Position numbers and translations under genes: made by a program. This document shows, piece by piece, positions 16,050 to 22,350 of a stretch of DNA of 32,232 nt. The DNA lies in the NCBI GenBank assembly GCA_018433015.1, contig JAHDSB010000193.1:1-32232 (forward strand). The letters are read 5' to 3'. The notes beneath the pieces were generated by a model. That model did not search any database. It worked only from the letters and a program-made list of their open reading frames with translations, and had not been told where the DNA came from. Every line of letters starts with the position of its first letter. Position 1 is the stretch's first letter. The stretch is from Clostridia bacterium. GTDB lineage: Bacteria; Bacillota; Peptococcia; DRI-13; SV3-B141.

Positions 16050-16052
16050 AAG

Positions 16053-16087
16053 AGCAGGACCTTTTCTTTAAAGGAAAAGGTCCTGCT
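16053..16087. terminator. Bidirectional terminator
   Basis: Stem AGCAGGACCTTTTC (16053-16066) with GAAAAGGTCCTGCT (16074-16087), 14 perfect pairs. CTTTTATTT follows on the minus strand and TCTTAT on the plus strand. It serves the converging deacetylase and DsrE genes. Confidence 0.85.
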
Positions 16088-16114
16088 TCTTATATTAGTA
16101 ACTTAGAAGGGATA

Positions 16115-16489
16115 TTAATTTAATTGTAATGTTGTTTGGGCATTATCTAAAAGATCTATCACATCTGGTAAATTTATGATCTCTGCAGTTTCTAAAAGTT
16201 CTTTTTCGGCAATGTTATTATGCTTGAGACATGCTAAGCAGACTTTTATCATACCTCCCTGTTCTAAATAATCTTTAAGTAAGTCTTTAACTGGTCTAAA
16301 AGGTTCCCCGATATCTATATCATTAACATAATCTTTGCGCGCAATGTGAACACCATCTACCAAGAGAATAATGGCAGTTTTATGTCCTTTTTGCAGGGCT
16401 CCCAGGGCAGCAGTAAATGCTACGGTAACATTGTTTTCATTATTTTTGTTATAGCCTAAGGTAACAACAAAAGATGGGAAATTTGTCAT
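16115..16489 (-). CDS. DsrE-family sulfur-relay protein
   Basis: 124 residues of the DsrE/DsrF/TusD-like Rossmann-type fold: N-terminal strand FVVTLGYN, then AFTAALGALQKGHKTAIILLVDGVHIA, and IKVCLACLKHN carrying C84 and C87. Family members carry persulfide on a conserved cysteine near this position and pass sulfur between TusA/rhodanese-type partners; C84 or C87 is the candidate here. No such partner lies in the window. AGGGGG about 9 bases before the ATG supports the start. The gene has its own near-consensus promoter, with a long palindrome at the transcription start, consistent with control by a persulfide sensor. The exact sulfur acceptor is unknown. Confidence 0.87.
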   Translation of the reverse strand: MTNFPSFVVTLGYNKNNENNVTVAFTAALGALQKGHKTAIILLVDGVHIARKDYVNDIDIGEPFRPVKDLLKDYLEQGGMIKVCLACLKHNNIAEKELLETAEIINLPDVIDLLDNAQTTLQLN

Positions 16490-16514
16490 ATTTAGAACCC
16501 CCTTATCAAGTTAA

Positions 16515-16545
16515 GTTTCAGATACCCCCAAGGGGTATCTGAAAC
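16515..16545 (-). promoter_or_regulatory. CstR/CsoR-like palindromic operator at the DsrE transcription start
   Basis: A perfect 14-bp inverted repeat, GTTTCAGATACCCC (16515-16528), CAA, GGGGTATCTGAAAC (16532-16545). It begins 26 bases upstream of the DsrE start codon and directly follows the -10 box. The core ATACCCC-N3-GGGGTAT resembles sites bound by CsoR-family copper or persulfide sensors (CstR). No T run follows on either strand, so it is not a terminator. The regulator itself is not in this window. Confidence 0.6.
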
Positions 16546-16546
16546 A

Positions 16547-16575
16547 ATTATAGCATTAAATTTTTCGTTTATCAA
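16547..16575 (-). promoter_or_regulatory. Strong sigma-A promoter of the DsrE gene
   Basis: Minus strand: TTGATA (16575-16570), exactly 17 bases, TATAAT (16552-16547). The predicted start lies inside the adjacent palindrome. Confidence 0.8.
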
Positions 16576-16591
16576 TATTATTTAGCAGATG

Positions 16592-16624
16592 AAAAAAGAA
16601 CCGCTGAGCTCAGCGGTTCTTTTT
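16592..16624 (-). terminator. Terminator of the ECF S-component gene
   Basis: A palindrome centred on CCGCTGAGCTCAGCGG with flanking A/T runs (AAAAAGAA and TTCTTTTT). It lies directly after the S-component stop codon on the minus strand and before the DsrE promoter. Confidence 0.85.
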
Positions 16625-22211: not shown

Positions 22212-22236
22212 TTGAGTGAAAGAAAATTTAATAAAT

Positions 22237-22335
22237 CATCGCTAGGGGGGCTGGTTAGGCCGGCTGAGATAAAGACCCGTTTGAAGTCTTTGACCCTAAA
22301 CCTGATCTGGATAATACCAGCGTAGGGAAGCTTGG
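22237..22335 (+). ncRNA. TPP riboswitch (THI element)
   Basis: The conserved core is complete: CTAGGGGGGCTGG near 22242, CTGAGA (22264-22269), ACCCT (22293-22297), then CTGATCTGGATAATACCAGC and GTAGGGAAG (22302-22330). It binds thiamin pyrophosphate and, with the terminator at 22351-22390, should stop transcription of thiD-cytX-thiM-thiE when TPP is plentiful. The outer P1 pairing is not clear by eye, so the boundaries are approximate. Confidence 0.95.
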
Positions 22336-22350
22336 CTCATTAGTTTATAG

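Follow-up and report, generated by a model that had tools for sequence, protein, structure and literature searches.

A probable CsoR/CstR-type operator at the promoter of a single dsrE gene in a Clostridia bacterium

A lone dsrE gene in a Clostridia bacterium has a near-consensus promoter that runs directly into a long, perfect palindrome. What is the palindrome for, which protein would read it, and what signal would that protein answer to? The window referred to below is the whole stretch of DNA analysed, 32,232 nucleotides in length. Around the gene it contains the following features:

16052 to 16088, no strand: terminator-like hairpin behind dsrE and a polysaccharide-deacetylase gene, probable bidirectional terminator
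16115 to 16489, minus strand: dsrE, encoding a 124-aa DsrE-family protein with the motif C84-x-x-C87-x-x-H90-N91
16498 to 16504, minus strand: AAGGGGG, probable ribosome-binding site, read from the sequence
16515 to 16545, no strand: perfect 14-bp inverted repeat GTTTCAGATACCCC-N3-GGGGTATCTGAAAC, by its sequence a probable type-2 CsoR-family operator
16522 to 16538, no strand: core of that repeat, ATACCCC-N3-GGGGTAT (ATACCCCTTGGGGGTAT), containing TAC-N9-GTA
16547 to 16552, minus strand: -10 hexamer TATAAT, at a 17-nt spacing from the -35
16570 to 16575, minus strand: -35 hexamer TTGATA, from the promoter scan
16593 to 16624, no strand: perfect 16-bp inverted repeat with a T run at the end on both strands, probable bidirectional terminator

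The gene product belongs to the DsrE family by DsrE/DsrF profile (Pfam DsrE, 3e-14) and by fold. A sequence search against the PDB gave no match; the AlphaFold model, however, is confident (mean pLDDT 92.6) and has a clear DsrE fold, with DsrE/DsrF-like proteins, YchN, DsrEFH and TusBCD as its best Foldseek matches. The C84-x-x-C87-x-x-H90-N91 motif is invariant across eight orthologues, and sulfur transfer is the known role of the family.

An earlier note on this DNA described TTGATA-N17-TATAAT followed by a perfect 14-bp repeat with an ATACCCC-N3-GGGGTAT core, and the sequence confirms that description. The promoter (16575 to 16547, minus strand) matches the consensus at 11 of 12 positions, is flagged as an extended -10 promoter, and outranks every other promoter-like site in a 900-base scan. 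A single base (16546) separates the -10 hexamer from the repeat downstream of it, whose fully complementary arms of 14 nt each (16515 to 16528 and 16532 to 16545; 100%) are 3 nt apart. Transcription would be expected to start near 16540, about 7 nt past the -10 and inside the repeat. Shuffling the whole window 20 times gave zero perfect repeats with arms of at least 14 and a loop of at most 5, and 0.06 occurrences of the core within 3 mismatches are expected per window. The gene lies between terminator-like hairpins, in keeping with the single-gene unit proposed earlier; the one at 16593 to 16624, judging from its sequence, probably separates dsrE from the upstream ECF transporter gene as a bidirectional terminator. 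Elsewhere in the window, a TPP riboswitch (22234 to 22345) is found upstream of a thiD-transporter-thiM-thiE gene run.

The repeat can be compared with the operators of S. lividans CsoR, where the consensus is ATATACCCCTNAGGGGTATAT, TAC-N9-GTA is required for binding, and type-2 sites are defined by a pair of short G/C tracts, separated by 2-4 bases, in an AT-rich inverted repeat (PMC3902906). The dsrE site reads ATA-CCCC-TTG-GGGG-TAT, fits the ATATACCCCTNAGGGGTATAT consensus and is nearly identical to the S. lividans copZA2 site. Two further marks of type-2 operators are also present: TAC-N9-GTA, and overlap with the promoter and the presumed transcription start, the site beginning 1 nt downstream of the -10.

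If this is an operator, other copies should help to show what kind. The 3.75-Mb genome (a 197-contig draft, 99.29% complete) contains two copies of the exact core, both at promoters, and 0 copies of the reversed word used as a control. The second copy (C7:7344) exactly fills the -35/-10 spacer (TTGCAA-N17-TATAAT) of a gene for a NapH-like polyferredoxin; the earlier note had looked to tusA, rhodanese or yeeE genes for further copies, and the genome scan does not support that. No such site was found at the copA-copZ operon on contig C74, so that copA and copZ lack the operator expected in a copper CsoR regulon, and none precedes rhodanese, tusA, tauE, sqr or cst-type genes, as a CstR regulon would have; genes of the latter kind do have the site in G433, a Planococcaceae genome that carries a dsrE orthologue. 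With exact copies at dsrE and the polyferredoxin gene and none at copA-copZ, the targets appear to be a sulfur carrier and an Fe-S protein rather than copper efflux. The widened word ATACC-N6/7-GGTAT gives 19 sites in this genome versus 13 in the control, and is uninformative by itself because most of the extra sites that were inspected fall inside genes. Sites with 2 mismatches on contigs C20, C45, C54, C137 and C146 are intragenic and were discarded as chance; one at C22:2405 was retained because it lies upstream of a MATE-csoR operon.

Word counts were extended to a set of 120 genomes, this one and 119 relatives. The exact core occurs at 33 sites in 22 of the 120 and the reversed word at 0, and a CsoR-family gene is present in 21 of the 22. 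The sites mostly precede csoR, copper-ATPase, thioredoxin, ferredoxin and permease genes. Nearby genes include csoR (G003, G052, G092, G098), copper ATPases (G062, G081, G089, G106, G109), trxA (G119) or trxB-trxA (G053), a CcdA-like cluster (G051), small ferredoxins (G001, G008, G055, G101), Fe-S/cytochrome b-like pairs (G055, G061, G101), SBF permeases (G001, G101), a pyridine-nucleotide disulfide reductase (G096) and a second polyferredoxin with 27% identity to the first (G099). A few exact sites (e.g. L094) lie within a reading frame and may be due to chance.

Several of these neighbors are of interest in their own right. In four genomes, ferredoxin-like proteins of 62-75 aa (L074, L075, L079, L083, L084) begin just after an exact ATACCCC-N3-GGGGTAT and are probably uncharacterised members of CsoR/CstR regulons. 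An SBF/ACR3-like permease gene (L073:2415-3383, L081:1540-2523, L162:3010-4002, L163:4860-5852) follows the operator in two genomes (G001, G101) and adjoins dsrE in two others (G428, G429); it is possibly a transporter of a sulfur compound. The related palindrome ATACCC-N5-GGGTAT is upstream of a fusion of CoA-binding and pyridine-nucleotide disulfide reductase domains in four genomes (L174, L176, L177, L178; Pfam domains determined on L178), a protein that resembles persulfide/CoA-disulfide reductase. The same palindrome precedes both loci (L157, L158) in which a csoR-like gene is immediately 5' of trxA, an arrangement that points to a thiol-linked type of CsoR having Cys-His-Cys ligands.

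Is the site also kept where dsrE itself is kept? None of the 119 relatives has a dsrE orthologue, this genome being the sole carrier (1 of 120), and so conservation at dsrE could be compared only across distant families: a Planococcaceae genome and its family, Tissierellia, and another Bacillota family. ATACC-N6/7-GGTAT occurs within 250 bases upstream in six of 12 dsrE sequences, our own included, where 0.005 are expected in shuffles; the 12 are mutually related rather than independent and represent about four lineages. Four further sequences have a one-mismatch form, namely ATACCCCATCCCCGTAT upstream of the gene in L145 and ATACGGGTGAGGGTAT-like forms immediately 5' of the start in L183, L184 and L185, and the remaining two (L131 and L132) have no site of this type upstream. 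The palindrome is thus neither unique to this locus nor unconserved, two outcomes that the earlier note had named as speaking against it: there are two copies in the genome and 33 sites in the 120, besides those at dsrE orthologues.

The same comparison bears on whether the repeat works as DNA or as RNA. A transcript would begin inside the repeat and its stem is stable (-24.1 kcal/mol, z -4.2), which would suit a 5'-terminal hairpin of the dsrE mRNA acting on message stability or initiation. In L146 and L147, however, the word is between the -35 and the -10 and hence untranscribed, as it is at the polyferredoxin gene, and this placement argues for function as DNA. The palindromes upstream of dsrE in L066, L130 and L182 are imperfect as stems, yet retain ATACC and GGTAT, and an Rfam search at the dsrE site gave no match. 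An RNA role is therefore highly improbable. Because relatives have the word at their csoR, copA and trx genes and it is kept upstream of dsrE orthologues, and given the match to the type-2 consensus with its TAC-N9-GTA, the palindrome very probably belongs to the CsoR-family operator class, as first suggested from this locus.

Which protein would bind it is less straightforward. The earlier note placed the regulator elsewhere in the genome and would have been contradicted by a genome without any CsoR-family gene; one is present, on contig C22 in a MATE-csoR operon (L013:678-2425). It is the sole CsoR-family gene found in the assembly, a search with the canonical CsoR/CstR model at E up to 10 giving no second one. 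The ligands of the protein are Cys-His-Cys and its N-terminus is His-rich, as in InrS, and InrS (5fmn) ranks second among its PDB matches. It clusters with ten similar proteins in a separate clade (98/90 support); InrS and 6ahx fall in the same part of the tree, where support is weak. In NCBIfam, all of the CsoR proteins score under the cut-offs, and these models therefore say nothing about their type. A CstR, with its two Cys and a middle ligand position not occupied by His, was not found in the draft assembly. A related palindrome, AAATATCCCCC-N3-GGGGGATATTT, is upstream of the operon, and the presumed auto-operator, TATCCCCC-N3-GGGGGATA, has the C4-N3-G4 core in common with the dsrE site, with 2 mismatches, and is without TAC/GTA. 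The CstR-like regulator implied by the earlier reading is thus not supported by this assembly, whose one detected family member is InrS-like and has a different presumed auto-operator.

Palindromes like TATCCCCC-N3-GGGGGATA precede the operon in three members of this clade (our own, L100 and L102; the absence of TAC/GTA was checked in our own), and members are in or beside exporter operons, MATE (our own, L102) or RND-like (L105). A resolvase-type recombinase fragment (L013:2497-3186) adjoins the MATE-csoR operon, which may therefore be on a mobile element.

Either the C22 protein also reads the dsrE site, or the draft, in 197 contigs, lacks the gene for a cognate CstR/CsoR. CsoR paralogues of Thermus can fail to cross-bind (PMC10318464). 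Control of dsrE by the C22 protein is conceivable, if somewhat doubtful. It would be required by a metal switch, in which this protein binds at dsrE, at the polyferredoxin gene and at its own operon, and Ni(II) or Cu(I) at the Cys-His-Cys site induces all of them. Being the only family member detected, having an operator with the shared core, and resembling InrS, which uses Cys-His-Cys for Ni(II) and binds Cu(I) too, all recommend the protein for this part. Its auto-operator nevertheless differs at the very TAC/GTA that CsoR requires in S. lividans, and the search turned up no second genome that combines exact sites with this regulator clade alone; G078, whose only CsoR match is in the clade, has no exact site. 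The targets, moreover, are sulfur and Fe-S proteins rather than metal pumps, and copA-copZ is without the site. On balance a metal switch is unlikely, and the same holds for the broader idea that the InrS-like protein has taken over the ATACCCC/GGGGTAT operators, coupling Ni/Cu or combined metal and persulfide sensing to DsrE and the polyferredoxin. Failure to find a canonical CsoR/CstR gene could also mean that a regulator of another family is involved, or that the palindrome is a functionless repeat. Such readings are very unlikely, since many genomes carry the word at promoters of csoR and copA, and distant Bacillota carry it at dsrE, at frequencies well above those of the controls.

For the signal, the most informative genome is G433. 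Its dsrE site, ATACCAGTAAGGGTAT, when reverse-complemented is one base from ATACCCTTACCGGTAT, which in the same genome is upstream of a rhodanese and metallo-beta-lactamase (persulfide-dioxygenase-like) gene, beside a Cys-only (Cys-Cys) CstR. The best PDB match of that CstR is 7MQ1/7MQ2, and 7MQ2 is named CstR (PMC9774590). In addition, the CstR-like YrkD of B. licheniformis represses a cluster that includes yrkE, a dsrE homologue (PMC9918477). Based on the CstR-side site and the YrkD precedent, persulfide is the best-supported signal for the dsrE orthologues. Extended by homology to the present organism, it is a reasonably probable signal for the dsrE operator.

Taken together, the best explanation, to which we assign a probability of about 0.68, is a type-2 operator through which a CsoR-family repressor, released by persulfide, controls dsrE. 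A CsoR-family (DUF156) protein would bind the palindrome, which is placed where transcription from a strong sigma-A promoter is expected to begin, and by barring RNA polymerase would hold the lone gene silent; modification of its cysteine site by the signal would free the DNA, and the DsrE sulfur carrier would be made. The signal would most likely be persulfide or polysulfide, as in CstR-like behavior, since the orthologues share the operator and the G433 site is close to the one on the CstR and persulfide-dioxygenase side. Repression, signal and binding protein at dsrE are all inferred.

On this reading, several Bacillota families would have a stand-alone dsrE subfamily, marked by an invariant CxxCxxHN, that is subject to CsoR/CstR-type control, and its product may be a stress-induced handler of sulfane sulfur. 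The operator word also flags small ferredoxins, the SBF/ACR3-like permease, thioredoxins and disulfide reductases, and so supplies a set of uncharacterised candidate partners that is open to experiment. Finally, it raises a question of specificity: which CsoR-family protein reads the word in a genome where the sole member detected seems to use another operator?

The CsoR-family switch itself is already known, and YrkD/yrkE is the precedent. In B. licheniformis, YrkD is likewise a CsoR-family persulfide sensor that represses a dsrE homologue (PMC9918477), but yrkE-yrkJ is a multigene cluster with its own repressor, whereas here dsrE is alone, lacks a neighboring repressor gene, and belongs to an assembly in which the search for a CstR-type protein came up empty. 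Staphylococcus aureus CstR and the 7MQ1/7MQ2 structures are closest to the CstR of the Planococcaceae genome with the CstR-like dsrE operator; the C22 protein differs in its His at the middle ligand position and its His-rich N-terminus. The latter, together with Cys-His-Cys ligands, is common to InrS, the Ni(II) sensor of Synechocystis (PMC4235346), although InrS controls the nickel-export gene nrsD and the C22 operon holds a MATE transporter instead. The type-2 operators of S. lividans (csoR, copZA1, copZA2; PMC3902906) have the same ATACCCC-N3-GGGGTAT core, TAC-N9-GTA and promoter position; there they control copper efflux, whereas here the site is at dsrE and the polyferredoxin gene and the copper ATPase operon is without it. 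TTHA1953 of Thermus thermophilus (PMC10318464) reads TAC-N2-TAC-N4-GTA-N2-GTA without G/C tracts, unlike the dsrE site, but is likewise a CsoR-family repressor of sulfur-metabolism genes far from its own gene.
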